Assembly: GCA_947631855.1 (NCBI GenBank)
Contig: CANRMX010000008.1
Coordinates: 1 to 52,861, forward strand
Source: an uncultured Clostridia bacterium
GTDB taxonomy: Bacteria > Bacillota > Clostridia > Oscillospirales > Acutalibacteraceae
DNA: 52,861 bases
Direction of reading: 5' to 3'
Shown here: in pieces, positions 9,162-39,344 of the stretch
Layout: each line of letters opens with the position of its first letter
How positions within the stretch are numbered: the stretch's first letter is position 1
The notes under the pieces: generated by a model
Seen by the model: the letters and a program-made list of their open reading frames with translations, nothing else
Databases searched by the model: none
What the model was told of the DNA's origin: nothing
Position numbers and translations under genes: made by a program

Positions 9162-9243
9162 CCGGCGCCTCACGGGCTGCGCTTCGCGCAGCGGATGCTC
9201 CTGGAGCATCCGTCCCAAGCAGCGCTTGGGCGTGAGGTGCCGG
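9162..9243. repeat. cloverleaf-forming intergenic element B
   Basis: An 82-base segment that folds into a four-way junction. The closing stem has 13 bp (9162-9174 with 9231-9243, one G.T). Three perfect hairpins follow: 9176-9192 (7 bp, loop TTC), 9193-9211 (8 bp, loop CTG) and 9214-9230 (7 bp, loop AGC). Only three junction bases are unpaired: one before hairpin 1 and two before hairpin 3. Element C read on the minus strand has the same 13-bp closing stem and the same 1-0-2-0 spacing, and shares the junction letters CACGGGCTG and GGGCGTG. It sits between the rpmF terminator and the DUF512 start, so it may lie in that gene's leader. Confidence 0.75.
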
Positions 9244-9260
9244 GGTCCGGCGAGCGCCCA

Positions 9261-9292
9261 TGAAAAGAAAAGGGAACGCCGGCCGCGTTCCC
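9261..9292 (-). terminator. terminator of yceD-rpmF
   Basis: On the minus strand, an 8-bp perfect stem (9272-9279 with 9285-9292, five-base loop) is followed by a TTTTCTTTT run. It ends 25 bases beyond the rpmF stop and separates that operon from the DUF512 gene. Confidence 0.8.
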
Positions 9293-9316
9293 CTTCTCCA
9301 AGATTTCAGAATAAAC

Positions 9317-9499
9317 TTACGCTTCCTTGCGCACCACGGCACGGCCATTGTAGTAGCCGCAATTGCCGCACACGCGGTGAGGCGCGGTGTATTCCCCGCA
9401 ATGGGGGCACCGGGCCAGCGCGGGAGCCTGGAGCTTCCACACCTGAGAACGTCTCTTATTCTTCCTTGCACTCGAAAGTTTTCCCTTGGGGACTGCCAT
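9317..9499 (-). CDS. rpmF: 50S ribosomal protein bL32
   Basis: A 60-residue ribosomal protein. The N terminus MAVPKGKLSSARKNKRRS is characteristic of bL32, and the C-terminal half holds a zinc ribbon (CPHC...CGNC), so this is the zinc-binding form. GGGAGGTG precedes the ATG. It follows yceD by 53 bases, a conserved pairing, and is followed by a clear terminator. Confidence 0.97.
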   Translation of the reverse strand: MAVPKGKLSSARKNKRRSQVWKLQAPALARCPHCGEYTAPHRVCGNCGYYNGRAVVRKEA

Positions 9500-9552
9500 G
9501 AGAAACACCTCCCTATTTGATCTTATGGTCTTATCAACTTTGAAAAACGCCC

Positions 9553-10050
9553 CTACAACAGCGCCTGCAGCGCGGCCAGCCTGGGATCGACTTCCTGCTT
9601 CGGGCAGCCGCAGTCGCCCTGATTCAGGTTCTTCCCGCAGCGGGGACACAATCCCTTGCAGTCTTCCCTGCACAGGAATTTCCCCGGCAGGTCCAGCAGC
9701 ACGTCCTCCCGCAGCAGTTCGTCCAGCTCCACCTTGCCGTCGGGCGCAAGCACATACTCGTCGCCGTCCGGCTCGCCGCCGTTCATGCTCTGCACCACCG
9801 TGTGGGTGAATTCCCCCCGGTACCGCCGCTCCGTCATCTCGCCGCAGCGGTCGCAGGGCTTGCGCAGCACATAGCTCACCTGGGCCAGAAGCGCTGCCGA
9901 TCCGGCAAAGCCCCGGATACGCACCGCGGCCTCCGCGGCCTCCGGGAAGATCGGCGTCCCGTTCTCCAGCACATCGGAAAGGTCCAGCGTTACCGTGCTC
10001 TCTTCCCAGGGCGTGTCGTGCAGGAAATAGCGTTTTAAGTCAACAGTCAT
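9553..10050 (-). CDS. YceD/DUF177 family protein
   Basis: A 165-residue protein of the YceD (DUF177) family, usually encoded directly before rpmF, as here, and in some organisms linked to 23S rRNA or 50S metabolism. It shows two cysteine pairs: CDRCG in the middle, and CREDCKGLCPRCGKNLNQGDCGC near the C terminus, typical of clostridial members. The ATG at 10050 has GAGGT seven bases upstream and lies about 20 bases from the expected transcription start. Expression is driven by a perfect consensus promoter overlapped by a dyad (10063-10104). Confidence 0.9.
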   Translation of the reverse strand: MTVDLKRYFLHDTPWEESTVTLDLSDVLENGTPIFPEAAEAAVRIRGFAGSAALLAQVSYVLRKPCDRCGEMTERRYRGEFTHTVVQSMNGGEPDGDEYVLAPDGKVELDELLREDVLLDLPGKFLCREDCKGLCPRCGKNLNQGDCGCPKQEVDPRLAALQALL

Positions 10051-10062
10051 AGCAAACCTCAT

Positions 10063-10091
10063 GCCGTACCGATATATTATACCGGTACGGC
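10063..10091. promoter_or_regulatory. putative operator dyad over the yceD-rpmF -10 box
   Basis: Perfect 9-base arms GCCGTACCG (10063-10071) and CGGTACGGC (10083-10091) are separated by 11 bases holding the -10 hexamer. One arm covers the expected start point and the other lies in the promoter spacer, a geometry typical of a repressor site. No matching regulator can be named; the sequence is not the known FapR box. Confidence 0.6.
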
Positions 10092-10104
10092 TCAGTTTTG
10101 TCAA
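10076..10104 (-). promoter_or_regulatory. consensus sigma-A promoter of yceD-rpmF
   Basis: Minus-strand TTGACA, 17 bases, TATAAT: a perfect match to the consensus. The predicted start near 10069 leaves a leader of about 20 bases. Confidence 0.88.
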
Positions 10105-10156
10105 GGATTTTCTGCCAAAGGGCGCAAAACAAATTCTCCGGGGCGGCGCGGTTTCC

Positions 10157-10339
10157 CTATTTGCCGTCGCCCAGGAAAACGATCACCAGCCCCGCGATCC
10201 CCACGATGAGGCCCACCAAGCCCCAGTCCGGGTACCAGCCAATGCCAATGAAGCTGAACAAACTGTCAAAGGAGCTGTGGGCCAGGTTCAGCAGGATGCC
10301 AAACAGGATCAGCGCCACGCCCCGCAGCTGCTTTTTCAT
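10157..10339 (-). CDS. small two-helix membrane protein
   Basis: A 60-residue protein with two hydrophobic helices (about residues 7-20 and 38-57) joined by a short loop with an SFDSLFSF segment. An AGGAG sits eight bases before the ATG, formed by the last codons of the P-loop gene; only six bases separate the two genes, so translation is probably coupled. I do not recognise the family. It is the last gene of the pgi cluster. Confidence 0.7.
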   Translation of the reverse strand: MKKQLRGVALILFGILLNLAHSSFDSLFSFIGIGWYPDWGLVGLIVGIAGLVIVFLGDGK

Positions 10340-10345
10340 CTACGC

Positions 10346-10765
10346 TTACTCCTGGATATACTTTGCACAGCTTTCCGGGATCTCCTCACTGGAAAGGGAC
10401 ACGGAGAGCACGATATTGGCGCCGGATACCTTCCCCAGCTTCTCCAGGTCGCCGATAAAGCGCTCCAGATCAAAATCATCGGTGGCAGGGGTGACGATCT
10501 TCAACGTGGAGTCCACGAAAATGTCGGTGACGTCGTAGTTGCCCGCGCAGATGCCGCTGATGAAGCCGAACAGCGCCGGGGCCCCGGTGATGTCGTATTC
10601 GTCCGAATCCACCAGACGGGCCTTGTGGGGGATGTCATAGGTGAGCTTCATGCCCTTCTCGATCACCACCACGTTGCCGCCGGAGGACGCCAGAGCCGCG
10701 TTGACCTTTTCGATGAGCTTCTTGGTTTTGCCGGACCCTTTCTTGCCGATGAGTAATGAAATCAT
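10346..10765 (-). CDS. small P-loop NTPase-like protein
   Basis: A 139-residue protein with a Walker A motif GKKGSGKT at residues 7-14 and a hydrophobic strand ending in Asp (DIFVDS) that could serve as Walker B. It is too short for a full motor ATPase and lacks any helicase motif. Similar short clostridial proteins are sometimes labelled PilT-like, but nothing here indicates pilus function. AAGGAGAA precedes the ATG. It follows pgi by 66 bases that hold an 8-bp hairpin (10790-10811) without a T-run, and it is followed closely by a two-helix membrane protein. Confidence 0.8.
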   Translation of the reverse strand: MISLLIGKKGSGKTKKLIEKVNAALASSGGNVVVIEKGMKLTYDIPHKARLVDSDEYDITGAPALFGFISGICAGNYDVTDIFVDSTLKIVTPATDDFDLERFIGDLEKLGKVSGANIVLSVSLSSEEIPESCAKYIQE

Positions 10766-10831
10766 AACAGGTTCTCCTTTTCACTTTTTCGCCCGAAGTC
10801 CAGTTCGGGCGGGGATTTCTCAGTCTTGCGC

Positions 10832-12172
10832 TCAGTTGCTCAGACGCGCCTCCAGCACGGCCTTTGCCTCCTCATAGCCGGGCTTGCCCAGCAGCGCGAA
10901 CATATTCTTCTTGTAGCTCTCCACGCCGGGCTGGTCGAAGGGATTGACCCCCAGCATATAACCGGAAATGGCGCAGGCCTTCTCGAAGAAGTAGATCAGC
11001 TGCCCCAGGGTGTCCTCGCTGAAATCGGAGGCATGGAGCACCACATTGGGGACGCCGCCGTCGTTGTGGGCCAGCAGCGTGCCTTCAAAGGCCTTCTCGT
11101 TGACGAAGGCCATGGTGTGCCCGGCCAGATAGTTGAGGCCGTCCACGTCCACCGCTTCTTCCCCAAGGGTGATCTCATAGGCGGGCTGGTCGATGGCCAC
11201 CACCGTTTCAAACATCATCCGGCGGCCGTCCTGGAGATACTGCCCCAGGGAGTGGAGATCGGTGGAGAAGATCACCGAGGCCGGGAACAGGCCCTTTTGA
11301 TCCTTGCCCTCGCTCTCGCCATAGAGCTGCTTCCACCACTCGTTGAGCATGGCGCAGCGTGGCTCGTAGCTCACCATCACTTCCATGGCTTTGCCCTTGT
11401 TGTAGAGGATGTTGCGGATGGCGGCGTACTTGTAGCAGTCGTTCTTGGCCGGATCGGGATCGTCATAGATCTCGGCGGCCTTGGCGGCCCCGGCCATCAA
11501 CGCGTCGATATCCGCGCCGGCCACGGCGATGGGCAGCAGGCCCACGGCGGTGAGCACGGAGAAGCGGCCGCCCACGTTATCGGGCACCACGAAGGTCTCG
11601 AAGCCCTCCTCGTCCGCCAGGTGCTTCAGCGTCCCCTTGGCCCGGTCGGTGGTGCAGAAGATGCGCTCCCGGGCGCCCTCCTTGCCGTATTTTTCCTCCA
11701 GCAGCTCCCGGAACACCCGGAACGCGATGGCGGGCTCCGTGGTGGTGCCGGACTTGGAGATCATGTTGATGGAGATATCCTTCCCCTCGCAGATCTGCAC
11801 CAGCTCGCTGAGGGCGGTGGAGCTGATGGAATTGCCGGTGAAGTAGATGGCGGGAGAATCCCCACGGAGATCGTTGTAGCGGTCGGACTTCAAGAACTCG
11901 ATGGCGGCCCGGGCGCCCAGATAGGACCCGCCGATGCCGATGACGATAAACACGTCGGAATTGGAACGGACCTTGGCCGCTGCGGCCTTGATGCGGGCAA
12001 ATTCCTCCCGGTCGTAATCGGTGGGCAGATGGACCCAGCCCAGGAAATTGCTGCCCGGCCCCTTGCCGGAGGCCAGCAGCTCATGCGCGGCCCGCACCTG
12101 GGGCGCGATGGCCTCGTATTCGTGCTGTGCGATAAAATCTTTTAAGTATCCGTCGTTGAGCTTCAACGGCAT
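10832..12172 (-). CDS. pgi: glucose-6-phosphate isomerase
   Basis: A cytoplasmic glycolytic enzyme of 446 residues, the usual Firmicutes length, that interconverts glucose 6-phosphate and fructose 6-phosphate. Signature segments are present: [28 protein letters not shown] (phosphate binding) and VGGRFSVLT, with active-site His and Lys candidates toward the C terminus. AAAAGGAG precedes the ATG, and there is a dedicated promoter at 12227-12255. The two small genes downstream may share its transcript. Confidence 0.97.
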
Positions 12173-12226
12173 GCAAATGCACTCCTTTTTTCAGCCGCGG
12201 ATCATGGCCGCAGTCTTGCTGCTTCT

Positions 12227-12255
12227 ATTCTACAATAATTCAGAGCAATTTGCAA
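12227..12255 (-). promoter_or_regulatory. sigma-A promoter of pgi
   Basis: Minus-strand TTGCAA, 17 bases, TAGAAT, about 55 bases upstream of the pgi start. Confidence 0.65.
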
Positions 12256-12297
12256 GCCTCTTCTTTCATGGGTGGACAAACTCGCTTTTTCCCCACC

Positions 12298-13431
12298 CTA
12301 CCAGGAAAAGAAACAGCCCAGCAGGTACCGCAGCGCGGCGGAAAAGGTGACGGCCTCCACGTCCGCCGCCGCCGTGATCTCCACCGCGGCCGCATCCTCG
12401 CCGTTCACGGTGTATCGCACCCTGCCCACCACGTCGCCCTTGCGCACCGGGGCCGGGAGGCTCTCCGGCAGCTCGACGGTCTGCTCCACGCCGCCTGTTT
12501 CCGTGGATTGCAGCAAAATCTTGGGCATCTCCCCCACCTGGAGGGCCACGCTGTCCTCCAGGCCGCCGGTGACGGGCAGGGGCTCCAGCGCCGGGGATTC
12601 GGGGGTGGTCACCGCCCAATTGGCAAAGCCGTAGTCCAGCAGCGCCGCCGCATCCTGAAAGCGGTGGTCGGTGCTGTCCGCCCCTAAAATCACCGCGATC
12701 AGCGAAAGGCCGTCCCGCTCCGCCGTGGCTGTGATGCAGCTGCCCGCCTGGGACGTGGTGCCGGTCTTGAGCCCGGTGATGCCGTTGTAGCTGCGGATCA
12801 GCTTGTTGGTGTTGACCAGCTGGGTCTCCCCGTTCCGCACGTAGTCGATCCAGGTGAGGGTATAATCGAAAATCTGCTTATGGCCGATCAGCTCCCGGCT
12901 CATCAGGGCCACGTCGTAGGCGCTGGTGACATGGCCCGCCTCGTCCAGGCCGTTGCAGTTTTTGAACACCGTATCCGCCATGCCCAGTGCGGCGGCCTTC
13001 TCGTTCATCCGCTGCACGAAGGCCTCCTCGCTGCCGGCCACGTTCTCCGCCAGCACCACCGCCGCGTCGTTGGCGCTCATGATCACCGCCGCCTTGATCA
13101 GGTCGTCCACGGTCATGGCCTCGCCCTCTTTCAGCCAGATGTCCGATCCGCCCATGGAGGCCGCGTGGGCCGAGGCGGGCAGGGTATCGGTGAGGGCCAG
13201 CCGGCCGCTGTCAATGGCCTCGAAGGTCAGGCACAAGGTCATCACCTTGGTGATGCTCGCGCAGGGCCGCACAGCGTGGGCGTCCTTCTCGAACAGCACC
13301 CGCCCGGTGGAGGCTTCCATCAGCACCGCGGAAGGCGCGGTGAGCTCCACTGCGTCGCCAAGAGCGATGGGTGTGGGGACGAAAATCAACAGCAGGGTGA
13401 GCGCAAGCAGCAGACAGAGCAGTTTCTTCAT
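12298..13431 (-). CDS. D-alanyl-D-alanine carboxypeptidase (DacF/DacA-like, S11 family)
   Basis: A secreted or membrane-anchored penicillin-binding protein of 377 residues that removes the terminal D-Ala of peptidoglycan stem peptides. The N-terminal 25 residues are a signal sequence. The three active-site motifs are SITK (Ser59, Lys62), SAN (119-121) and KTG (222-224), followed by a C-terminal beta domain and a hydrophobic ending that could hold the protein to the membrane. I prefer the ATG at 13431, eight bases after AAAGGA; an ATG three codons earlier is too close to it. DacF in Bacillus is sporulation-specific, but I could not find a convincing sigma-F promoter here. Confidence 0.93.
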   Translation of the reverse strand: MKKLLCLLLALTLLLIFVPTPIALGDAVELTAPSAVLMEASTGRVLFEKDAHAVRPCASITKVMTLCLTFEAIDSGRLALTDTLPASAHAASMGGSDIWLKEGEAMTVDDLIKAAVIMSANDAAVVLAENVAGSEEAFVQRMNEKAAALGMADTVFKNCNGLDEAGHVTSAYDVALMSRELIGHKQIFDYTLTWIDYVRNGETQLVNTNKLIRSYNGITGLKTGTTSQAGSCITATAERDGLSLIAVILGADSTDHRFQDAAALLDYGFANWAVTTPESPALEPLPVTGGLEDSVALQVGEMPKILLQSTETGGVEQTVELPESLPAPVRKGDVVGRVRYTVNGEDAAAVEITAAADVEAVTFSAALRYLLGCFFSW

Positions 13432-13492
13432 GGGGATCATCCTTTCTCTTTCCTATCGTTCCTATATAGAAAGGATATGCCTCCCGCATACG

Positions 13493-13521
13493 GAAAAGAC
13501 CCCGGCGGTGGGCCGGGGTCT
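13493..13521 (-). terminator. terminator of the zinc-ribbon coiled-coil gene
   Basis: A perfect 10-bp stem (13497-13506 with 13512-13521), five-base loop, TTTT on the minus strand. It begins 18 bases after that gene's stop. Confidence 0.75.
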
Positions 13522-13538
13522 CGGGTCGATGAAAATCC

Positions 13539-13910
13539 TTATTCCTCGTCGGGCGTGAGCTTCGCGCCGCAATCGGCACAGTACGTCGCCGTGGAGGGGC
13601 TGGCCTTGCCGCAAACCGGGCAAATGACCTTGTTCTGCTTGTCGCCCAGCTCCCGAGTCACCGCAGCCAGCTGCGCCTTCACCTCTTCCAGCTCGGCGAT
13701 CTGCGCGGTGACGGCTTCGTCCCCGGCCAGCGCCTCGGCGCAATTCTCGGCCACATACTGGCCCAGCGTCTCATAGCGGCGGCGGATATCCGTGTTCAGC
13801 TCCGCCACGCTGATGCGCAGCTTGGAGGCGTCCACCAGCTTGCCGGCCTTCTTGCTCACGGCCTCGGCGGCAGATTTGGCGTTCACGACCACATCGTCCA
13901 AAATACCCAT
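13539..13910 (-). CDS. zinc-ribbon protein with N-terminal helical region
   Basis: A 123-residue protein. Residues about 1-90 are predicted helical and probably coiled coil (ELNTDIRRRYETLGQYV, AQIAELEEVKAQLAAVTREL). The C terminus is a zinc ribbon with CPVCG and CADCG pairs. This layout is common in Clostridia, but the role is unknown. A full GGAGG lies before the ATG. It has its own promoter (13964-13992) and terminator, so it is expressed alone. Confidence 0.85.
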   Translation of the reverse strand: MGILDDVVVNAKSAAEAVSKKAGKLVDASKLRISVAELNTDIRRRYETLGQYVAENCAEALAGDEAVTAQIAELEEVKAQLAAVTRELGDKQNKVICPVCGKASPSTATYCADCGAKLTPDEE

Positions 13911-13963
13911 GTAAAATTCCTCCTTTTTCAGTTGCCGGGAGACGACGCTCCCCTTATGCTGCT

Positions 13964-13992
13964 ATTATATCAGTCCGGCGGAAAAAAGTAAA
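13964..13992 (-). promoter_or_regulatory. sigma-A promoter of the zinc-ribbon coiled-coil gene
   Basis: Minus-strand TTTACT, 17 bases, TATAAT, about 50 bases before the start codon. Confidence 0.7.
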
Positions 13993-14046
13993 TAAATATT
14001 CTTTTACAAATTCATGAAAAATCCGTAAAAATTCGAGCGGCTCCGG

Positions 14047-14083
14047 AAACGAACAAGGCCCTCCCCAAACAGGAGAGGGCCTT
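14047..14083 (-). terminator. probable terminator of the CAP-SLH gene
   Basis: A perfect 9-bp stem (14055-14063 with 14075-14083). The minus-strand tail is GTTCGTTT, a weak T-run. It lies about 30 bases beyond the stop. Confidence 0.55.
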
Positions 14084-14113
14084 GGGTGGGCGTTTGCTTA
14101 CACGTCCAAATCT

Positions 14114-15250
14114 TTATGCCAGGTCTCGATACAGGAAGGTGACGCCCTGTCCACGGGTGCACTTCCCCTCCGGGCTAAAGGTGTCAGGCTCCATCCCCGT
14201 AGTGATGCCGTTTTCCACGGCCCACAGCACGGCGTCCGTGTAGTATTCCCCAGCCGGTACGTCTTTGAAGGGATTCTTGGTGGTGCCGGGAGCAGGCTTG
14301 CCTGCGTACCGCCACAGGAAGGTGACGATCTGCGCCCGGGTGCAGGCTTGGTTGGGACTGAAGGTGGTATCCTTGGTGCCGGTGGTGATGCCGTTCTCCA
14401 TCGCCCACAGCACGGCCTTGTAGTAGTATTCTTTTGCCGGCACGTCGGTGAAGCGGGTCGTGGTGGTCTTGGGCTCGGGTTCGCCGGCGCTTCTCCACAG
14501 GAAGGTCACGATCTGCGCACGGGTGCAGGGCTCGTTGGGGCTAAAGGTGAGCGGGGTGGTGCCAGTGGTCACGCCATTGGCCACGGCCCACTGGACTGCG
14601 TCATGGAAGAAATCGTTGCCTTTTACGTCCGTGAAATGCGGCGTAGGCATCCCTGTGTCTTCGATACCGGAATTCTCATATCCAAACTCCTGCACCCAGT
14701 AGTAATTGCCTTTGTAATAGAGGCAGGCGACGCCCACCGAAGTGAACTCCTCGTCCAGCATATTGCGGCGGTGGCCCTGGCCCTCATAGCCGTAGTTCTC
14801 CTCCGCCCACATCGTAAACGCATCCTCCGTTGTCAAGGTAAAAGACCCGCAGGCGATGTTCTCGCCCCAGCTGTTTATCCCCTGATAAACAACATCAAAG
14901 CACAGCGTGCCGTCCGGGCGGATATGGTTGAAGAGGATGCTCAACTCCGCCGCACGCCGGATGGCGATCTGCTCCAGCGCGTAGTCGTAGGTCAGCTCCT
15001 GCAGGCCGGTGACTTGCACCTTTTGGGTGTTGTCTTCGTTCCAATACCAGGCGTCCGGGCCGGTGCGGAAGTCGTTGATCATGTCCAGCATGGCGCGGGC
15101 GTCCGTTTGCAGGTAGGAACCTTCTGCCTGGATGGCTTTCACCTGGGCGTCCAGTTCCTCCGAAGTCATGGTGGCCGCGCTGGCGGCCAGGGGGATCATG
15201 GCCAGCAGCAGGGCCGCAGCCAGCAGGATGGAGAACAGCTTCTTTGTCAT
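14114..15250 (-). CDS. secreted CAP-domain protein with three SLH repeats
   Basis: A 378-residue exported protein. Residues 1-25 are a signal peptide with an AxA-type site. Residues about 45-205 form a CAP/SCP domain, shown by FNHIRPDG, WGENIACG and GQGHRRNML. Three S-layer homology repeats follow (each FTDV...AVxWAxxNGxTTG...TFSP...CTRAQIVTFLWR), which hold proteins to the cell wall. The last repeat is degenerate (CTRGQGVTFLYR) and ends the protein. The role of the CAP domain is unknown, and no protease motif is present. AAAGGAG precedes the ATG, with a good promoter at 15284-15313. Confidence 0.92.
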   Translation of the reverse strand: MTKKLFSILLAAALLLAMIPLAASAATMTSEELDAQVKAIQAEGSYLQTDARAMLDMINDFRTGPDAWYWNEDNTQKVQVTGLQELTYDYALEQIAIRRAAELSILFNHIRPDGTLCFDVVYQGINSWGENIACGSFTLTTEDAFTMWAEENYGYEGQGHRRNMLDEEFTSVGVACLYYKGNYYWVQEFGYENSGIEDTGMPTPHFTDVKGNDFFHDAVQWAVANGVTTGTTPLTFSPNEPCTRAQIVTFLWRSAGEPEPKTTTTRFTDVPAKEYYYKAVLWAMENGITTGTKDTTFSPNQACTRAQIVTFLWRYAGKPAPGTTKNPFKDVPAGEYYTDAVLWAVENGITTGMEPDTFSPEGKCTRGQGVTFLYRDLA

Positions 15251-15283
15251 GATTTTAGCTCCTTTCGGATATTCCTGTTTACA

Positions 15284-15313
15284 AGTATACACTGCCTGTG
15301 CGCCCGCTGTCAA
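15284..15313 (-). promoter_or_regulatory. sigma-A promoter of the CAP-SLH gene
   Basis: Minus-strand TTGACA, 18 bases, TATACT, about 40 bases before the start codon. Confidence 0.75.
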
Positions 15314-15364
15314 TGATCGAAACGAAAAAGGGCGCGGCGGTGCGATCGACCCGTGCACGGCCTA

Positions 15365-16825: not shown

Positions 16826-16845
16826 AGGCTCGCCTCCTTTGGGAT

Positions 16846-19056: not shown

Positions 19057-21122
19057 CAGACGCCCTCCTTTCCCGAAGCCTCCGTCTGTGCCCGCAGCCG
19101 CGCCAGCACCTCGGAAGCGAATATATCCACTTTCTGCTCCATCTTCGGCACCCGAATCTTCAGCGCCTCGTCGCCCTCCACGGCGATCAGGCCCCGCTCC
19201 TCCAGAATATCCAGACAGCTGAGCAGCCGGCCCAGATGGAAGCCCTTCCCCTGCAGCGTCCCCAGCAGCGTCAGGGGCGTCACCGGCCTGCCCTGCAGGG
19301 CCTGCAGCTGCCGGTACAATACCGCCAGCGTCTGCCGGTCCGGGGTCAGCGCCCCGGCCTCCGATGCGCTGAGCGTCTCTCCCCGGCGGAATTTCTCATA
19401 CAGCCGGTAGGTATGTATACATTCCTCGTCCGAAAGCGCGGACAGGCGGATGTCCCGCACGTTCACCGTCATCTCCGGCTTGCCCCGGAATTCCCGGAGA
19501 TCCAGCTGCACCGCCAAATCCACCCGGTCGCCGATGCCATAGGGGAATTCCTCCGGCGCCGTGCCGAAGCGCATCCCGGTGAGGAAGGCGTTCCCTTTCC
19601 GGAAAGCCAGCCGCAGGTGCCTGCCGCCGCCCACCGGGGTGATCTCCCGGAGCTCCATGCCGAACAGCCCGAAGGTGGGCCGGGGATTCCCCACGCCGAA
19701 GGGCTCCAGCGCCGCCATGTCCCGGGGCATCTCCACGCTGATGGCCGCCGGATTCAGCCGGCAGTCGATGGGCAGCGTCATGGCGGGCATTTCCGGGCAG
19801 ACCCGCCGGGCATAGGCGTTGATCTCCGCCCGGAATTCTCCGATCTGCCCGGCGCGGATAGTCACGCCCGCCGCCATGGGGTGGCCGCCGAAGCGTTCCA
19901 GCAGCCGGGCGCAGGCGGAGACCGCATCGAACAGAGAAAAGCCCTCCACGCTGCGGCCGCTGCCCTTGGCGGCGTCGCCGTCTTTGGAGATCACGAAACA
20001 GGGCTTGCCGAAGCGCTCGGTGATCCGGGCGGCCACGATCCCCAGCACCCCGTGGTGCCAGCCCTCGCCGTCCACCACGATCACCCGGCTGAAAAGCAGC
20101 TGGGGGTCCCGGCGAATCTTCCCCATGGCCTCGGCGGAGATCTCCGCCTCCACCTCCCGGCGGCGGTCGTTTTCGCCCAGAATCTCCTGGGCAAGAGGCA
20201 GGGCCTCCTCGCTGTCCTCGCAGCACAGCAGCCGCACCGCCCGTTCCGGCGCGCCCATGCGCCCGGTTGCGTTGATCCGCGGGATCACCGTGAAGGCCAG
20301 GTCGGAGGCCGTCAGCGCCCGGCCCGCGCCGTCCTGCCCCAGCAGGGCGGAAAGCCCCGGCCGGCCGCCCCGCAAAATGCCCCGCAGGCCCATCTGCACG
20401 ATCAGCCGGTTTTCTCCGCGCATCAGCACGGAATCGCCCACCGTGCCCAGAGCTGCCAGATCGCCGTATTCCTCCAACACACTTTCCGCGTCCCCGTCCT
20501 CCAGCGCCATCAGCAGCTTCAGCGCCACGCCTGCGCCGGAAAAATCTTTGAAGGGACTTTCGTCGTCTGCCCGGTAGGCGTCCACCACGGCCACGGCGGC
20601 CGGCAGCTTTTCATGGGGCCGGTGATGGTCCGTCACCACCACGTCCATGCCCAGGGAATTGGCCAGGGCCACCTCCTCCACCGAGGAAATGCCGTTATCC
20701 ACCGTGACGATGAGCTTCACCCCCTGCCGGTGCAGGGCCTCCACCGCGGGGCTGTTCATGCCGTAGCCCTCGCCCTCCCGCTGAGGGATGTAGTAGAGCA
20801 CGTCCGCGCCCATGGCCTGCAGATAGGTGAACAGCATGGCCGTGGAGGTGACGCCGTCGGCGTCGTAATCGCCGTACACCGCGATGCGCTCAAAGCCGTC
20901 GATGGCCCGGCGGATGCGCTCCACCGCCCGGTCCATGTCCTTCATCAGGAAGGGATCGGAGAACCCGGCTGCGCCGTGCAGGGCGGCGGCCACGGCTTCG
21001 TCCGTCCGCACGCCCCGAATCTCCAGCAGCATCGCCAGGAAAAACGGGATGGAATACCGCTCGGCCAGCTGCGCCGCCCGGTCCCGGTCCAGCGGAGCGA
21101 CCACCCATTTCTTCACGTTCAC
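19056..21122 (-). CDS. recJ: single-stranded-DNA-specific 5'-3' exonuclease RecJ
   Basis: A 688-residue DHH-family exonuclease acting in recombination and mismatch or base-excision repair. DHH motifs: VYGDYDADGVTST (Asp85, 87, 89), VTVDNGISS and VVVTDHHRPHE (165-167). The DHHA1 motif GGHPMAAG lies near residue 405, followed by the OB-fold domain and a further C-terminal extension with winged-helix-like sequence, as in Firmicutes RecJ. The start is GTG at 21122 with GGAG nine bases upstream; a second GTG two codons later is an alternative. It is the first gene of recJ-relA-hemZ, behind the promoter at 21172-21200. Confidence 0.94.
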   Translation of the reverse strand: MNVKKWVVAPLDRDRAAQLAERYSIPFFLAMLLEIRGVRTDEAVAAALHGAAGFSDPFLMKDMDRAVERIRRAIDGFERIAVYGDYDADGVTSTAMLFTYLQAMGADVLYYIPQREGEGYGMNSPAVEALHRQGVKLIVTVDNGISSVEEVALANSLGMDVVVTDHHRPHEKLPAAVAVVDAYRADDESPFKDFSGAGVALKLLMALEDGDAESVLEEYGDLAALGTVGDSVLMRGENRLIVQMGLRGILRGGRPGLSALLGQDGAGRALTASDLAFTVIPRINATGRMGAPERAVRLLCCEDSEEALPLAQEILGENDRRREVEAEISAEAMGKIRRDPQLLFSRVIVVDGEGWHHGVLGIVAARITERFGKPCFVISKDGDAAKGSGRSVEGFSLFDAVSACARLLERFGGHPMAAGVTIRAGQIGEFRAEINAYARRVCPEMPAMTLPIDCRLNPAAISVEMPRDMAALEPFGVGNPRPTFGLFGMELREITPVGGGRHLRLAFRKGNAFLTGMRFGTAPEEFPYGIGDRVDLAVQLDLREFRGKPEMTVNVRDIRLSALSDEECIHTYRLYEKFRRGETLSASEAGALTPDRQTLAVLYRQLQALQGRPVTPLTLLGTLQGKGFHLGRLLSCLDILEERGLIAVEGDEALKIRVPKMEQKVDIFASEVLARLRAQTEASGKEGV

Positions 21123-29197: not shown

Positions 29198-29201
29198 CCC
29201 C

Positions 29202-30696: not shown

Positions 30697-30761
30697 CGCC
30701 GCATCGGACGAAAAAAACGCTTTTTTCAAAAGAAAGGCTTTATTTTACCGCCTTTTGGCAA

Positions 30762-30767: not shown

Positions 30768-30812
30768 AGTACCGGGCGCTGACGCCCGATTCCAAACCAT
30801 GAGGTGATCCCT

Positions 30813-32186: not shown

Positions 32187-32201
32187 CCGAAAGCATACGA
32201 A

Positions 32202-32248
32202 AACAGCGTCCTGTTCACCAAAAGGGGATAGGACGCTGTTGATTTTTT
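32202..32248 (+). terminator. terminator of murC
   Basis: A perfect 11-bp stem (32202-32212 with 32230-32240), then GATTTTTT. The minus strand has a shorter TTTT, so it may also end the converging phosphorylase transcript. Confidence 0.85.
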
Positions 32249-32265
32249 CCGATCCTTCCAGAGGG

Positions 32266-33039: not shown

Positions 33040-33069
33040 GGCGCCGCCTCCTTTGTGGGAATTTGCCTG

Positions 33070-33098
33070 ATTATAGCACAGGGCGGAATCCCTGTCAA
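33070..33098 (-). promoter_or_regulatory. consensus sigma-A promoter of the nucleoside phosphorylase
   Basis: Minus-strand TTGACA, 17 bases, TATAAT, about 30 bases before the start codon. Confidence 0.88.
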
Positions 33099-33267
33099 CC
33101 TTTGCGGCCCACGGACGATGATTGGCCTTCTTCCCGCAAAAGTACAAAGTGGGTTTCGCGACTGGGAGCGTTTTTTTTCATATCCCGCCAGCGCACGCAA
33201 ACGTGCGCGCCCCGCGTCGTGGCAGCGGGCCCTGCCCGCCACCGGTGCGGCTGGGTTTTCTTTCAAA

Positions 33268-33300
33268 TTATATCCCCCGCCCGAAGGGCGGGGGATATAA
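33268..33300 (-). terminator. long perfect hairpin after the MreB-like gene
   Basis: A 15-bp perfect stem (33268-33282 with 33286-33300) around a GAA loop, starting five bases past the MreB-like stop. The minus-strand tail is TTTGAAAG, only a short T-run, so termination is likely but not certain. Confidence 0.65.
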
Positions 33301-33304
33301 AAAA

Positions 33305-34333
33305 TCAACTATATGCCACCAGAGGATTCATCTTGCCTCCGCCGGTGCGGCTGTCGATCTTGTCGATATACCGGATGGCTTTGCCCGCGCCCAGCACCAC
33401 GCAGTCCTGGGGATTCTCCTCGGTGACCACCGGGATCTTGGTCTTCTTGGAGAGCAGGGTGGAGAAGCCATACAGATTCGCCGAGCCGCCGGTGAGATAG
33501 ATGCCGTCGGTGAAGATGTCCGCCAGAAGCTCCGGCGGGGTCTCCTCCAGCGTGGACTGCACCGTGCGGATGATGTTGATGGCCGGTTCGATCAGGGCCT
33601 CCAGCATTTCGTCGGAATTCATGGTGGTGGTCATGGGCAGGCCGTTCATGGCGTTGCGGCCCTTGAGGGTGTATGTCAGCAGCTCCTTTCGGGGGTACGC
33701 GCAGCCGATGGCGATCTTCGCGTCCTCCGCCATGCGGTCGCCGATCATCAGATTGAACTTCCTGCGGACATAGCGGACAATGGCGTCATTGAAATCGTCC
33801 CCAGCGATGTGGATGGAATTGGCGATGGTGATGCCGTTGAGGGAGATCACCGCCATATCGGTGGTGCCCTGGCCCACGTCCACGATCATGGTGCCGTGGG
33901 GCACGGAGATATCCACCCCCGCCCCGATGGCCGCCGCCACCGGCTCCTCGATGAGGCACACCTTCCGCACGCCCGCCGACCCGATGGCATCCACCACCGC
34001 CCGGCGCTCTACCTCGGTGAGGCCGCAGGGCACGCTGACCACCACCCGCGGCATGAACACCCGGGAAGGGTTGAGCTTTTTGAGATAGTACCGGATCAGG
34101 TGCTCGGCCATGGAGAGATCGGAGATCACGCCGTTTGCCAGCGGCCTGGCCACGGTGATCCGGCTGGAGGTGCGCCCCAGCATATCATAGGCCGCCGACC
34201 CGATGGCGATGACCTCGTCCGTCAGGTTATCCACGGCGATGATGGAGGGCTCGCACAAAATAATGCCCTTGCCTTCCATATAGACCCTGAAACTGGAAGT
34301 GCCCAGATCAATGGCGATATCGTTTCCAATCAT
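33305..34333 (-). CDS. MreB/Mbl-family rod-shape actin homologue
   Basis: A 342-residue bacterial actin. ATP-site motifs: phosphate 1 IAIDLGTSSFRVY, phosphate 2 TMIVDVGQGTTDMAVIS, and the adenosine motif GIYLTGGSANLYG. It guides cell-wall insertion at the membrane. It stands alone without mreC or mreD, so it is more like the Mbl or MreBH copies of Firmicutes than the mreBCD gene; I give no symbol for that reason. The ATG at 34333 has AGGA-type sequence upstream and a clear promoter at 34380-34408. Confidence 0.92.
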   Translation of the reverse strand: MIGNDIAIDLGTSSFRVYMEGKGIILCEPSIIAVDNLTDEVIAIGSAAYDMLGRTSSRITVARPLANGVISDLSMAEHLIRYYLKKLNPSRVFMPRVVVSVPCGLTEVERRAVVDAIGSAGVRKVCLIEEPVAAAIGAGVDISVPHGTMIVDVGQGTTDMAVISLNGITIANSIHIAGDDFNDAIVRYVRRKFNLMIGDRMAEDAKIAIGCAYPRKELLTYTLKGRNAMNGLPMTTTMNSDEMLEALIEPAINIIRTVQSTLEETPPELLADIFTDGIYLTGGSANLYGFSTLLSKKTKIPVVTEENPQDCVVLGAGKAIRYIDKIDSRTGGGKMNPLVAYS

Positions 34334-34379
34334 CCGATCCTGTCCTCTCACAAACTGAAATCCGTGCAGATACAAATTT

Positions 34380-34408
34380 AGTATATCATATCCGCGGGCT
34401 TTTTTCAA
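34380..34408 (-). promoter_or_regulatory. sigma-A promoter of the MreB-like gene
   Basis: Minus-strand TTGAAA, 17 bases, TATACT. It overlaps the last codons of the VanZ-like gene. Confidence 0.7.
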
Positions 34409-34880
34409 CACCCAAAACGCGGGCCCGCAGGCGGCGGAAAATCCACAGCCCGGCGGCCGCCAGCAGCACCCCGGCGACGCCGCCCAGCACGTCCAGGCCT
34501 GTCTCGTCCCACTGGAGGTGCCTGCCGGGGATGTTGATCTTGCAGACCTCGGCCAGCACGGCCGCCCCGGCCACGAACAGCGCCGTCAGCGCCATGCCCA
34601 GCCCCTTCCGCCGGGTATGGGAGGCCCCCACCGCAGCAGCCGCCAGGAACCCCTCCACGAAGAAGATGCCCACATGGGCCAGCAATCGCAGCCGCCGGTG
34701 CAGGCTGGTCAGGCCCCAGGAAATGCCGAAATCCTGCAAAATTCCGTGCAGCCACCGGGCGATCCGCCAGCTGAGCCCCACCGTTTTCGCCCCGGTCTGC
34801 CAGGAGAGGAACAGGCACACGGCCAGCCACCCCAGGGCGGCCGCCGTCAGCACGATCTGCAGCGCTTTTCTCATTCGCAT
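34386..34880 (-). CDS. VanZ-like membrane protein, GC-rich
   Basis: A 164-residue protein with about four hydrophobic helices. The C-terminal part (INIPGRHLQWDETGLDVLGGVAGVLLA) fits the conserved R...D...N/GG..G ending of VanZ-like proteins. The start is ATG 34880 (four bases after GGAGG) or ATG 34874 (ten bases). It begins 23 bases after recD2, in the same transcript. Its function is unknown. It is not a close relative of the VanZ-like protein at 28014-28544 and has the native base composition. Confidence 0.75.
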   Translation of the reverse strand: MRMRKALQIVLTAAALGWLAVCLFLSWQTGAKTVGLSWRIARWLHGILQDFGISWGLTSLHRRLRLLAHVGIFFVEGFLAAAAVGASHTRRKGLGMALTALFVAGAAVLAEVCKINIPGRHLQWDETGLDVLGGVAGVLLAAAGLWIFRRLRARVLGVEKSPRI

Positions 34881-34903
34881 CCCGCCTCCTCCGTTGGGGT
34901 TTC

Positions 34904-37126
34904 TCAAACGATCTCGTCCTTGCCGTCCCGCAGAAGCAGCTTGCCCAGCCCGGTATACCGCCGGGTCTTGCGGTCGTTCTCGATCATCTTCCGCAGCACG
35001 GCCACTTCGCCCACCAGGATCAACAGCTGCTTCGCCCGGGTGATGCCGGTATACAGCAGATTGCGGTAGCACAGCTGGCTGGGCGTCCGCAGCACCGGGA
35101 GGATCACCGCCGGGAATTCGTTGCCCTGGCTCTTGTGCACCGTCACCGCGTAGGCGGGCTCCAGCTCGTCCTGGGCGCGCTCGAAATCGTAGAGCACGTC
35201 CTTGTCGTCGATGCGCACGTGCAGCGCGCCGCCGGGCCGGTCGATGGCGGTGACCACACCCATGTCCCCATTGAACACGCCTTCGCCGCCGGTGCCGTCC
35301 TCCCGGGACCAGGGCAGGTCGTAATCGTTGCGCACCTGCATCACCTTGTCCCCCAATCGGAAGATCGCGCCGCCCAGCTTCACCTCCGGCTTGCCCTTTT
35401 CGGCGGGATTGATGGCCTCCCGCAGCAGCTTGTTCAGCTCCACGGTGCCCAGGTCGGCTTTCCGGCCGGGGCAAAGCACCTGGATATCCGTCACCGGCGA
35501 CAGGCCATAGCTTTTGGGCAGACGCTTTGCGCAGAGGTCCACGATCAGCTGCCGGGCGGCCTCGGGCTCGGACTGGGGCAGGAAGAAAAAATCCCCGTCC
35601 CTGCGCCGCAGCTCGGGCAGGGCGCCGCCCACCACCCGATGGGCATTGGTGACGATCAGGCTCTCCATGGCCTGCCGGAAAATTTCCTTGAGCTGCACCG
35701 TGGGAAACAGCCCGGAGGCGATCAGGTCCCCCAGCACGTTCCCCGCGCCCACCGAGGGCAGCTGGTCGCTGTCGCCCACCAGAATCAGCCGGCAGGAAAG
35801 GGGCAGCGCCCGCAGCACGCTCTCGAAGACGTAGGCATCCACCATGGACAGCTCATCGATCACCAGGCAGTCGCACTCCAGCGGATTGCGCTCGTTGCGG
35901 GTAAACACCGGGTTGTCGTGCTCGTCCCAATCCACTTGCAGCATCCGGTGGAGGGTCTTTGCCTCCCGGCCGGTGACTTCGCTCATGCGCTTGGCGGCAC
36001 GGCCCGTGGGCGCCGCCAGATACACCTTCTCCCCTGCCCGCTCCAGCAGCTGGATGATGGCGTTGAGGGTGGTGGTCTTGCCGGTGCCCGGCCCGCCGGT
36101 GAGGATCAGGATGCCCTGCCCCAGGGCGGCCTCCACCGCCTCCCGCTGCTTGTCCGCATAGCGGATGCCCCACTGCTGCTCCAGCTGGGCCAGCTGGTCG
36201 GGCGTGCCGGTGATGGCCTTGGGGGGCATCCGCAGCATGGATTTCATCCGGGCGGCGATATAGCTTTCCCCTGCATACTGCTCCTTGAGGAACAGGAACT
36301 GCCGCTCGTCGAACTCCTCCGCGGCGATCTGGAAATTCTGGGTGAGGGTGTACACCGCGTCCCGCACGGCCTCCGTCTCCACCCCCAGCAGCTGGGCCGC
36401 CGCCCGCACCAGCTTGTCCGCAGGCAGGCAGGTGTGGCCGTTGTTCAGGTTGTGCCGCAGCACATAGAGCACGCCCGCCTGCACCCGGCTGGCGTCGTCC
36501 CGGGGCATTTCCATGGATTCGGCAATGGCGTCGGCGATGTCGAAGCTGATATCCAGCCCTGCGCCGCAGAGGCAGTAGGGATCGCTCTGGATGCACGCCA
36601 CCGAGGCCTCGCCGAAGGCTTTCCACACCAGCACCGTTTCCTCGGGCCGCACGCCATAGGCCCCCAGAAAGGCCATCAGCTCCCGGATGCCGTACACGCG
36701 CTTCAGCTCCTCGCTGATCTCCCGGGCCTTCTCGGGAGAGATGCCCTTGATCTGGGCCAGGCGGCCGGGGTCTTCCTCAATGACGGTGAGGGCCTGGGCG
36801 CCGAAGGCATCGATGATGCGCCGGGCCATGGCCGGGCCGATGCCCTTCACCGCCCCCGAGGACAGGTATTTCAGCATGGCGGCGGTGGTGGCGGGGCGGG
36901 CGCGCTCAAAGGCCTCCGCCTTGAACTGGTCGCCGAAGGAAGGGTGGCTGGTCCACGTGCCGTAGACCTGCAATTCCTCCCCCTCGCTGACGAACGGAAA
37001 AGCCCCCACAACGGTGACGACTTCCCCGCCGGCGGCCATTTCCAGCACGGTATATTGATTTTTGTCGTTGTGGTACACCACGTGCTCCACGGTGCCCTTC
37101 AGCTCCAGCAATCCGTTCTCCGCCAA
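34904..37126 (-). CDS. recD2: RecD2-type superfamily 1 helicase
   Basis: A 740-residue 5'-3' DNA helicase of the RecD2 (RecD-like, RecBC-independent) family. N-terminal OB and helix-hairpin-helix regions (VKGIGPAMARRIIDAFG) precede the motor: Walker A GGPGTGKTTTLN, motif II VIDELSMVD, a VHKSQGNEFPAVILP motif, and a final TGITRAKQLLIL. The start is TTG at 37126, one base after the stop of the small gene upstream (TGA-A-TTG), with AAAGGA nine bases before it, so translation is coupled. It probably acts in recombinational repair. Confidence 0.94.
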   Translation of the reverse strand: MAENGLLELKGTVEHVVYHNDKNQYTVLEMAAGGEVVTVVGAFPFVSEGEELQVYGTWTSHPSFGDQFKAEAFERARPATTAAMLKYLSSGAVKGIGPAMARRIIDAFGAQALTVIEEDPGRLAQIKGISPEKAREISEELKRVYGIRELMAFLGAYGVRPEETVLVWKAFGEASVACIQSDPYCLCGAGLDISFDIADAIAESMEMPRDDASRVQAGVLYVLRHNLNNGHTCLPADKLVRAAAQLLGVETEAVRDAVYTLTQNFQIAAEEFDERQFLFLKEQYAGESYIAARMKSMLRMPPKAITGTPDQLAQLEQQWGIRYADKQREAVEAALGQGILILTGGPGTGKTTTLNAIIQLLERAGEKVYLAAPTGRAAKRMSEVTGREAKTLHRMLQVDWDEHDNPVFTRNERNPLECDCLVIDELSMVDAYVFESVLRALPLSCRLILVGDSDQLPSVGAGNVLGDLIASGLFPTVQLKEIFRQAMESLIVTNAHRVVGGALPELRRRDGDFFFLPQSEPEAARQLIVDLCAKRLPKSYGLSPVTDIQVLCPGRKADLGTVELNKLLREAINPAEKGKPEVKLGGAIFRLGDKVMQVRNDYDLPWSREDGTGGEGVFNGDMGVVTAIDRPGGALHVRIDDKDVLYDFERAQDELEPAYAVTVHKSQGNEFPAVILPVLRTPSQLCYRNLLYTGITRAKQLLILVGEVAVLRKMIENDRKTRRYTGLGKLLLRDGKDEIV

Positions 37127-37127
37127 T

Positions 37128-37472
37128 TCACACGATCCTTTCCCCGAAAAGCCGCTCCAAAGGCGGCAGGTTCTCCTTTGCATAGACCTGCAGAAAGGGG
37201 TATTCGCGCCCCAGCAGCGTGCAGATCTGCACCGTCTCCCAGTCGCCGCCATCGATGAGGCACACCAGCCGACAGGGCGCGCGCATCCACCGCAGCCGCT
37301 GGGCCGCCGCCCGCAGGGTGGATTCGCAATCCTCCGGGCCCTGGGGCGCGGCGATCAAAATCAACGGGTGCTGCTCATCGGGCCGCAGGCTGCGGAAGCT
37401 CCCCCTGCGCACCCCTTCCACGCCAGCAAGCACGGCCAGCAGCCCGCACACTGCGATCAACAAAACCTTCAA
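37128..37472 (-). CDS. small membrane-anchored protein of unknown function
   Basis: A 114-residue protein with one N-terminal hydrophobic helix (about residues 2-18, possibly a signal anchor) and a soluble remainder (LILIAAPQGPEDCESTLRAA...LVCLIDGGDWETVQICTLLG). The alternating hydrophobic strands suggest a small alpha/beta domain. I do not recognise a family. I chose TTG 37472 with GAGGTG upstream; a GTG three codons earlier is possible. It is directly upstream of, and coupled to, recD2, but no role in repair can be claimed. Confidence 0.7.
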   Translation of the reverse strand: MKVLLIAVCGLLAVLAGVEGVRRGSFRSLRPDEQHPLILIAAPQGPEDCESTLRAAAQRLRWMRAPCRLVCLIDGGDWETVQICTLLGREYPFLQVYAKENLPPLERLFGERIV

Positions 37473-37523
37473 ACCGCTCACCTCGCTGCACCATCCTATG
37501 CGCGGCGGCGGGATTTTGTGCCC

Positions 37524-38708
37524 TTACAGCGCCTGCACCGCGTCCAGCAGCGCCTGCGCCCGGTCCCGGCGCTCCCACGGCACGTCCAGATCTTCCCGGC
37601 CCATGTGGCCATAGGCGGCCAGCTGCTGATAGATGGGGCGGCGGAGATCCAGATCCCGGATGATCGCCCCGGGCCGCAGATCGAACACCTGCTGGATGGC
37701 CTTCGTCAGCACCTCGTCGGGCACCTGCCCGGTGCCGAAGGTATCGGCCATCACCGAGACGGGCCGGGCCTTGCCGATGGCGTAGGCCAGCTCGATCTCG
37801 CAGCGCCTGGCCAGCCCCGCCGCCACGATGTTCTTCGCCACCCAGCGGGCCGCGTAGGCCGCCGAGCGGTCCACCTTGGTGGGGTCCTTCCCGGAGAAAG
37901 ACCCGCCGCCATGCCGGCCCCAGCCGCCGTAGGTATCCACGATGATCTTCCGCCCGGTGAGGCCCGTATCCCCTGCCGGCCCGCCGATGACGAACCGCCC
38001 GGTGGGGTTGATATAGATGCGGGTCTCCCCGTCCATCAGCGCCGCCGGGATCACCGGGCGGATCACCTGCTCCAGCACGTCCGCCTGCAATTGAGAGAGG
38101 GTCACATCCTCGCTGTGCTGGGTGGAGACCACGATGGCCGCGATGCGCTTCACGGCTTCGCCGTCGTATTCCACGGTGACCTGGGTCTTGCCGTCGGGCC
38201 GGAGATAGGGCAGGGTGCCGTCCTTGCGCACCTGGGCCAGGCGCTTCGCCAATCCGTGGGACAGGGAAACGGACAGGGGCATCAGCTCCGGGGTCTCGTC
38301 GCAGGCGTAGCCGAACATCATCCCCTGATCGCCCGCGCCGGTGCGGCTCAGCTCGTCTCCTTCTTCCCCGTTCCGGGCCTCCAGCGAAGCGTTGACCCCC
38401 ATGGCGATATCTGGCGACTGCCCGTCGATGGAGGTGAGGATGCCGCAGGTGTTGCCGTCAAAGCCCTTGTCCGGGCCGTCGTAGCCGATCTCCCGCACCA
38501 CCCGGCGCACGATGGCGGGCACGTCCACCCAGCAGGTGGTGTTGAACTCGCCCATCACATGGATGACCCCGGTGGTGGCGGTGGTCTCCACGGCCACGTG
38601 GGCCGCCGGGTCTTTCGCCAGGATCGCGTCCAGCACCGCATCGGAGATCTGGTCGCAGACCTTGTCGGGATGCCCCTCGGTGACGGATTCGGAAGTAAAC
38701 AGTTTCAT
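37524..38708 (-). CDS. metK: S-adenosylmethionine synthetase MetK
   Basis: A 394-residue cytoplasmic enzyme making SAM from methionine and ATP. Motifs: [17 protein letters not shown] near the N terminus, [12 protein letters not shown] (about 115-126) and [19 protein letters not shown]. The ATG at 38708 lies seven bases after AGGAG; an ATG two codons earlier is too close. Upstream is a SAM-I riboswitch with an overlapping terminator (38751-38888), so expression should fall when SAM is plentiful. The promoter is far upstream (39176-39204), giving a leader of about 460 bases. Confidence 0.97.
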
Positions 38709-38750
38709 AGTCATTCTCCTTTGATTCTCCTGATGGAGGATTGATTCTAT

Positions 38751-38783
38751 GCAAAAAAGGCTCTCGCAAATATCGAGAGCCTT
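38751..38783 (-). terminator. riboswitch-controlled terminator in the metK leader
   Basis: Minus-strand stem of 10 perfect bp (38757-38766 with 38774-38783), seven-base loop, then TTTTTT. Its GAGAGC/GCTCTC stem can compete with the 5' strand of the SAM-I aptamer, as expected of an S-box attenuator. Confidence 0.88.
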
Positions 38784-38790
38784 CAAAAGC

Positions 38791-38888
38791 CTCATCTTTC
38801 GGTTTTCACCGCAGGAATTGGCACCTTACAGCTTTCGCCACAGGTTGCCGGGCATCACAGGGCCTGTCCCTCCGCCGCTCTCGATAAG
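38791..38888 (-). ncRNA. SAM-I (S-box) riboswitch aptamer
   Basis: Read on the minus strand, the S-box landmarks come in order: CTTATCGAGAGC, GGAGGGAC, GGCCC, TGATGCCCGGCAACC, AAGGTGCCAATTCC and GAAAGATGAG. The first and last elements pair (CTTATC with GATGAG) as P1. It is known to bind S-adenosylmethionine and to favour termination. It lies about 80 bases before metK and directly before the terminator. Confidence 0.95.
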
Positions 38889-38889
38889 G

Positions 38890-39142
38890 GGGCGTGACGC
38901 CCCGTTCAAGACGCGGGTGCAAATGAGCACGGGCGTTGAATGTGCGGCACGCGGTATTCGTTTGTTGAGGATCGTTCATGAGCTGGGCGTGACGCTCCAT
39001 CCAAGACGCGCGTGAAAGTTCACACGCTACGTTGGTAAGCAGCACGCGGTATTCGTTTGTTGAGGGTCGTTCATGGGCTGGGCGTGACGCCCTTTTCACG
39101 TCGCGGGTGCAGATGAGCACAGGCATAAACTATGCGGCAGCG
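38890..39142. repeat. 95-base tandem repeats in the metK leader
   Basis: Three direct repeats with an exact 95-base period begin at 38890, 38985 and 39080, each with GGGCGTGACGC. Units 1 and 2 are full length and nearly identical over about 45 bases (CACGCGGTATTCGTTTGTTG onward). Unit 3 matches unit 1 over about 60 bases and then stops. Each unit starts with a small GGGCG-TGA-CGCCC-type dyad. The period is not a multiple of three, so the repeats are not coding. They lie between the metK promoter and the riboswitch and would be transcribed. Confidence 0.85.
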
Positions 39143-39175
39143 CCCATGGCCACGGCACAGTTTCAGCGTTTCTTC

Positions 39176-39204
39176 ATTATAACAACCGGCGGGAATTTTG
39201 TCAA
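39176..39204 (-). promoter_or_regulatory. consensus sigma-A promoter of the metK leader
   Basis: Minus-strand TTGACA, 17 bases, TATAAT. Just upstream of the -35 box is CCGTACCG (39207-39214), the same eight bases found in the arms of the yceD operator dyad. Confidence 0.88.
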
Positions 39205-39258
39205 TACGGTACGGAAAAAATCCGAAAAAACATTCGAGTTGCCTGCACCGCCCGACCG

Positions 39259-39344
39259 CCCGCGCCGCACGCCCGGCCCCAGAGGGGCCGGGCGCGGGCC
39301 CGAAGGGCCCGGCTGGGCCTGCGGCCCAGCCCGTGCGGCGCGGG
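39259..39344. repeat. cloverleaf-forming intergenic element C
   Basis: An 86-base, extremely GC-rich segment forming a four-way junction. The closing stem has 13 perfect bp (39259-39271 with 39332-39344). The hairpins are 39272-39292 (9 bp, loop AGA), 39295-39311 (7 bp, loop GAA) and 39312-39330 (8 bp, loop TGC). Only three junction bases are free. Read on the minus strand, its spacing (1-0-2-0) and the closing-stem length equal those of element B. It lies between the tuf terminator and the metK promoter, so it may not be transcribed with either gene. Confidence 0.78.

Follow-up and report, generated by a model that had tools for sequence, protein, structure and literature searches.

A dispersed family of cloverleaf-folding intergenic repeats in Acutalibacteraceae whose stem arms change together

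The window analysed here is a stretch of 52,861 nucleotides from an uncultured Clostridia bacterium of the family Acutalibacteraceae (assembly GCA_947631855.1, contig CANRMX010000008.1), and three of its intergenic regions hold elements, termed A, B, and C, in which a closing stem surrounds three hairpins. We found that they belong to a dispersed family of repeats of about 80–100 bp that keep one fold while their stems differ, as the original prediction had proposed from the three elements, and that the two arms of a stem change together between copies. This is strong evidence for selection for, or upkeep of, the fold. We regard the elements as a real family resembling the repetitive extragenic palindromic (REP) sequences, with a new architecture. 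The three elements in the window are as follows.

Element A, 1037..1124, no strand assigned: closing stem 1037–1047/1114–1124; hairpins 1048–1062, 1064–1088, and 1089–1112
Element B, 9162..9243, no strand assigned: closing stem 9162–9174/9231–9243; hairpins 9176–9192, 9193–9211, and 9214–9230
Element C, 39259..39344, no strand assigned: closing stem 39259–39271/39332–39344; hairpins 39272–39292, 39295–39309, and 39310–39330

The predicted positions and fold of all three were confirmed beyond shuffled controls as both RNA and DNA, with an ambiguous helix register in element A. Folded as RNA with flanks, A, B, and C had z-scores of −4.9, −5.7, and −4.5 on the plus strand (equalled by 0, 0, and 1 of 200 shuffles) and −7.0, −5.9, and −5.1 on the minus strand (0 of 200 each), and folded as DNA trimmed to their ends they had z-scores of −5.2, −7.4, and −7.7 (0 of 200 each). 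A descriptor with a closing stem and chained hairpins (hairpin stems of 5 or more pairs and no junction with more than 3 unpaired bases) found A, B, and C as the only three-hairpin structures in the window, plus a weak two-hairpin structure of 18 pairs at 19400–19453. In 100 pooled block shuffles of the window, there were two three-hairpin matches, one with at least 26 pairs and one with 20–25, and one four-hairpin match. B on the plus strand and C on the minus strand do have CACGGGCTG, GGGCGTG, and the 1-0-2-0 junction in common, but these are not a general family trait, as other copies have other closing stems.

To describe the family, we scanned stretches of the source genome (G000; 1,842,615 bp, of which 672,861 bp were scanned), a sister species (G004), and a third genome (G043), which are 81%, 97%, and 85% complete, respectively. 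One genome per species was compared, and genomes of the family were sampled in stretches only. In the window plus 20 arbitrarily chosen stretches of the source genome (452,861 bp) there were 10 three-hairpin and 5 two-hairpin structures, and one block-shuffled version contained none. Restricted to stretches of 9 kb or longer and to structures of 24 or more pairs, the counts of three-, two-, and five-hairpin structures were 14, 5, and 1 in the 672,861 bp of G000, 10, 0, and 0 in 178,700 bp of G004, and 11, 1, and 0 in 176,306 bp of G043. Together, these 1,027,867 bp contained 35 three-hairpin, 6 two-hairpin, no four-hairpin, and 1 five-hairpin structures. The element densities are biased upward in G043 and in two later G000 stretches, because some G043 stretches and those two were picked around model matches. 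Distinct elements with at least 26 pairs amounted to 76, of which 14 were in G000, at least 51 in G004 at 51 different places, and 11 in G043, so that the three elements of the window do have further copies in their own genome. Loop lengths ranged from 2 to 8 nt, with 3 nt in 149 of 228 loops. Two-hairpin structures of other kinds were also seen. The source genome has two nearly identical AT-rich elements about 100 nt apart (L023:9640–9694 and 9741–9795), and G014 has a Y-shaped element, CCCTCAGTC...GACAGCTCCCC...GGGGAGCCTAAGGG (L220:9827–9884), of a type common in gut Clostridia.

Outside these three genomes the elements were rare. Among 24 further genomes of the genus (868,775 bp; two members were outside the sample), three elements were found in G011, one of them AT-ended and perhaps something else, and one in G040, and the other 22 had none. 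No elements were found in 321,603 bp from 19 genomes that belong to the family but not to the genus, where two short stretches were probably read as N, because they were without any G or C. GC content alone is no explanation, as G023, with a GC content as high as that of G043, had no element in 40 kb. Model R2 matched 4 of 29 genomes of the genus, with at most 150 of 1,480 to 5,307 candidates scored per genome, and missed the G011 and G040 elements found by the descriptor; in the order it matched 1 of 295 genomes, the source genome itself, with 15 candidates scored per genome. Model R1 matched 3 of 29 genomes, and the negatives of both model searches are weak. A contig scan yielded one locus, from a distant metagenome-assembled genome, without an element, and of two patterns searched in viral contigs the first had no matches and the second had two, neither with the fold. 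Eight element-bearing loci were compared with Rfam, and only the S-adenosylmethionine (SAM) riboswitch exceeded its cut-off; a sub-threshold match lay over the L193 element (E 0.063, 22.1 bits against a cut-off of 48). We found no publication on such cloverleaf elements in the open-access (PMC) literature.

The paired changes in the stems carry the main finding. When 11 diverse elements of G000 and G004 were aligned, a structure derived from those same 11 sequences paired 92.7% of 313 cells, with 50 two-sided changes, 5 one-sided changes, and 23 unpaired cells. None of 500 shuffles was as high on any measure, and slid structures paired 50–53%. A G004 subfamily with the closing stem CCGTCTCGC (51 model matches, 39 distinct rows) allowed closer comparison. 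In its 39 copies, 99.2% of 1320 cells were paired, and 128 two-sided cells stood against 15 one-sided and 11 unpaired ones, so the stems did not drift without compensation. Both sides had changed at all 11 pairs of hairpin 1, including swaps between G-C and C-G without a wobble step, while 7 of 9 pairs in the closing stem and 6 of 7 in hairpin 2 were invariant. Among 38 copies, the 5′ arm of hairpin 1 showed 0.405 differences per site and 24 distinct arms, compared with 0.006 in the closing stem, 0.009 in hairpin 2, 0.064 in hairpin 3, and 0.051 in the tail; the flank had 0.277 (first 100 aligned columns of 17 copies with one flank kind). Part of the element is therefore nearly fixed, and hairpin 1 outpaces its surroundings while remaining paired. 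Many copies of one recent subfamily in one genome thus show two stem arms changed together beside unchanged neighbouring stems. Such copies allow a direct test of a long-standing question, namely whether compensatory changes arise as two mutations under selection or in a single templated event.

Gene calling relied on codon composition, which misses small genes. In the source genome, 9 of the 14 elements lay 3–19 nt behind a stop codon, compared with 9.9% within 30 nt under random intergenic placement (p about 1e-6), and 5 of 14 lay between converging genes. Element A is outside the count of nine, and its surroundings and those of B and C include the following features. The names EF-Tu-like, rpmF-like, and antiporter-like used here are readings of the sequence and not family-search results.

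Terminator-like hairpin, 9263..9291, minus strand: between the small gene at 9317, which we take to be rpmF-like, and element B; read from sequence
Terminator-like hairpin, 39381..39414, minus strand: between the EF-Tu-like gene and element C; an inverted repeat with an A-run on the plus strand at its left
69-nt duplicate, 1139..1207, minus strand: 97% match to 1319–1387, where the right-hand neighbour gene of element A ends, stop codon included

Element A ends 14 nt from position 1139, where the duplicated gene end with its stop codon starts. Elements B and C lie 73 nt and 112 nt past the stops of the right-hand gene (9317) and the EF-Tu-like gene (39457), respectively, each with the listed terminator-like hairpin in between. 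The duplication beside element A is direct, with its two copies 180 nt apart, and is accompanied by a 14-nt perfect inverted repeat (1294–1307 with 1382–1395); together they look like the scar of a replication template switch.

A position behind stop codons is also what would be expected if the elements acted as RNA at mRNA 3′ ends, where a transcribed cloverleaf would block 3′ exonucleases or read-through and selection would bear on the RNA fold alone. This is the main rival explanation, and we consider it rather unlikely. Besides the nine stop-proximal elements and the very stable RNA folds, it is favoured by three of those nine (L017, L018:12016, and L019) that are followed within 260 nt by a terminator-like hairpin on the same strand, and would therefore be transcribed. 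However, no T-run followed any of 144 element ends, so the elements themselves are not intrinsic terminators, and for B and C a terminator-like hairpin comes between the gene and the element. The sense and antisense folds are about equal, G-T was not above A-C on the gene's strand (5 versus 7), and the presence of elements is patchy between species.

The loops also differ from those of terminators. GNA or TNC made up 101 of 149 element triloops, compared with 208 of 1077 background triloop hairpins arising by chance. Compared with terminator-like hairpins of the same genomes, such triloops were more frequent in the elements of G000 (24/35 versus 5/23, p 0.001) and of G004 without the subfamily (17/38 versus 0/8, p 0.02), and the comparison was not significant in G043 (7/20 versus 1/12, p 0.2). 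GNA loops are extraordinarily stable in DNA, according to work cited in a passage of PMC6479982. On the adjacent gene's strand, hairpin 1 had eight TNC and one GNA loops and hairpin 3 had nine GNA and two TNC loops, a symmetry that is alike on both strands. Only 31 of 2830 opposed positions were not Watson-Crick (11 A-C, 7 G-T, and 13 others), with a G-T excess on neither strand. Together, the tight triloops and the lack of a G-T excess suggest that the DNA form is what matters. We incline towards a process at the DNA level that is helped by template switching, and PMC8794818 reports that template switching can produce perfect hairpins and keep them perfect.

Comparison between species showed that elements have been gained or lost. 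Eight sites could be compared between G000 and G004, of which three had an element in both genomes and five did not. At the first shared site (L019/L156), behind an antiporter-like gene whose proteins are 80% identical, the element sequences were very different; at the second (L020/L172, 68%), the hairpins were plainly homologous; at the third (element A/L167), one neighbour corresponded at 53% identity and the other was different. The unshared sites were those of C (beside a 91% identical gene) and B, and L120, L159 (51% only), and L160 of G004. Among 13 genomes with the antiporter-like gene, an element followed it in G000 and G004, none did in 10, and one had no readable stop. No element was found behind the second shared gene in G011, G040, and G043. 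The strict descriptor likewise found none around the genes that adjoin B and C when 54 loci (219,894 bp) from other genomes were scanned. The shared and unshared sites indicate that an element can be old and keep its shape, and can be missing from the same place in relatives. Behind the antiporter-like gene of G016 (L279), we observed a palindromic repeat, TGTCATCCTGA...TCAGAATGACA, of a widespread type; a Y1 transposase was matched in this genome too.

Many of the G004 subfamily copies come in pairs, spaced roughly 550–1080 bp, inside apparently non-coding mosaics of other repeats, as judged from the intervals that were read. The subfamily has two kinds of 3′ flank, and this together with the pairs in mosaics suggests amplification along with neighbouring DNA. 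Two such mosaics (L086:2200–3600 and L087:13300–14450) are intergenic, about 1 kb long, and made up of several repeat modules, and each mosaic carries two cloverleaves. Copy pairs were considered as borders of gene cassettes, an idea dropped when the two intervals read showed repeat mosaics and no convincing gene, although a protein family search was not made. The tail GGGAGGYGGGTGGG was likewise rejected as a family trait and belongs to the G004 subfamily.

Such mosaics, and the many extragenic, palindromic copies, recall the classical REPs and bacterial interspersed mosaic elements (BIMEs) moved by RAYT (Y1) transposases, a comparison that the original prediction had raised without equating the two. 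G011 and G040 both carry elements and have four matches each to the RAYT profile PF01797. However, PF01797 had no match in G000, G004, and G043 (81%, 97%, and 85% complete), the three richest carriers found, and the elements are 80–100 bp long with three hairpins rather than 20–40 bp. Outward within 12 nt of element ends, the tags GTAG and CGTC occurred at 3 and 6 of 72, no commoner than in windows 100 nt further out (5 of 72 each). We therefore consider RAYT-moved REPs improbable. IS110 was also rejected as a mobiliser: it matched in 8 of 10 genomes (5 over the cut-off), and its distribution, like that of RAYT, does not track the elements, with the most IS110 matches in G022, which had no element in 40 kb.

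Structured leader (5′ untranslated region) RNAs controlling the next gene, another predicted possibility, are very improbable. B and C are also upstream of the next gene on the minus strand, and C is followed by a SAM riboswitch (38789–38890, minus strand), which lies outside the elements and is the only Rfam family above cut-off in the window. Against this, the elements tend to sit behind stop codons, the 5 of 14 between converging genes in G000 have no gene start downstream, and no element had an Rfam match above the family's cut-off. Repeated GCGGTATTCGTTTGTTGAGGRTCGTTCATG units occupy about 38930–39130, between the riboswitch and element C. Chance folding of GC-rich DNA, with a GC content of 59–68% in the window in its favour, can practically be dismissed in view of the RNA, DNA, and descriptor shuffles, the covariation in both the 11 diverse elements and the 39 G004 copies, and the lack of elements in the GC-rich G023.

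Among the options originally proposed, the strongest remains a DNA structure, either a mobile hairpin or a cruciform. We propose, with moderate confidence, a REP-like cloverleaf DNA repeat in which hairpin-templated repair and selection together keep the arms complementary. Each element would be a copy of a probably non-autonomous repeat of about 80–100 bp, folding as single-stranded DNA at the replication fork or as a cruciform, with the closing stem around three tight hairpins. Hairpin-templated copying through template switching, together with selection for the fold, would keep the arms complementary, and the slowly changing closing stem and middle hairpin may be recognised by a trans-acting factor through which the element spreads. 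Elements may settle behind stop codons because insertion there does no harm or because they target this location. More tentatively, and in our view possible rather than probable, they could form a new class of single-stranded DNA cloverleaf repeat, in which the closing stem and middle hairpin form a fixed part for recognition, joined to a hypervariable hairpin with arms that co-change faster than the surrounding DNA. Stems would then be rewritten by DNA-templated copying of arms without loss of the fold, and an enzyme other than RAYT would spread the copies.

Several points weigh against the proposal of a DNA repeat kept by templated copying. The structure used in the test on 11 elements came from those sequences themselves, and alignment A9 had been made to follow the structure of the model. 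Intermediates occur in both the G004 copies and the 11 elements (the one-sided and unpaired cells given above), so ordinary mutation plus selection also contributes. Recent copying may account in part for the invariance of the closing stem and hairpin 2 in G004, and the hairpin-1 variants form several related groups, so independent events are fewer than the cell counts. The descriptor demands near-perfect Watson-Crick stems, so imperfect copies are under-sampled and the G-T argument is weakened, and the GNA loop comparison covers chance hairpins and terminators, with known structural RNAs outside it. Proximity to stop codons was less marked in G043 (4 of 11 elements within 30 nt, p 0.04) and in long G004 stretches without the subfamily (2 of 5, p 0.07; 9 of 18 with short loci included, without a control), and B and C are separated from their stops by the hairpins described. 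A binding protein, a function, DNA-level upkeep, and mobility are what we infer, and no mobilising enzyme was identified.

The cloverleaf elements share features with several known systems. Intrinsic (rho-independent) terminators are likewise stable hairpins behind genes, whereas the cloverleaf has four helices, no T-run at the 144 ends, and loops rich in triloops and GNA. Integron attC sites vary in sequence while their folded single-strand form is conserved, with core boxes GTTRRRY/RYYYAAC, and in this the cloverleaf resembles them. It differs in its three hairpins and its place behind ordinary genes, and the box pair was found beside 0 of 72 elements; an integron integrase was not searched for. 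Prokaryotic stem-loop repeat families, in the parts of PMC2267715 and PMC1590033 consulted, are also dispersed and able to fold; those in PMC2267715 are grouped by sequence similarity, whereas cloverleaf copies share a fold, a separation made by description only. There is also a likeness to REPs and BIMEs, which the consulted parts of PMC2817692 and PMC3733652 describe as short, palindromic, extragenic, in many copies, species-specific, and sometimes in mosaics, with a REP unit of 20–40 bp and one stem-loop. The cloverleaf differs in having three hairpins within a closing stem, stems that vary between copies while the fold is kept, no enrichment of the GTAG/CGTC tag at its ends, and no RAYT gene in its three main carriers; CGTC REPs are likewise without a known dedicated transposase in the part of PMC3733652 consulted. 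The family adds to the REP-like repeats a form with three hairpins and no known transposase.

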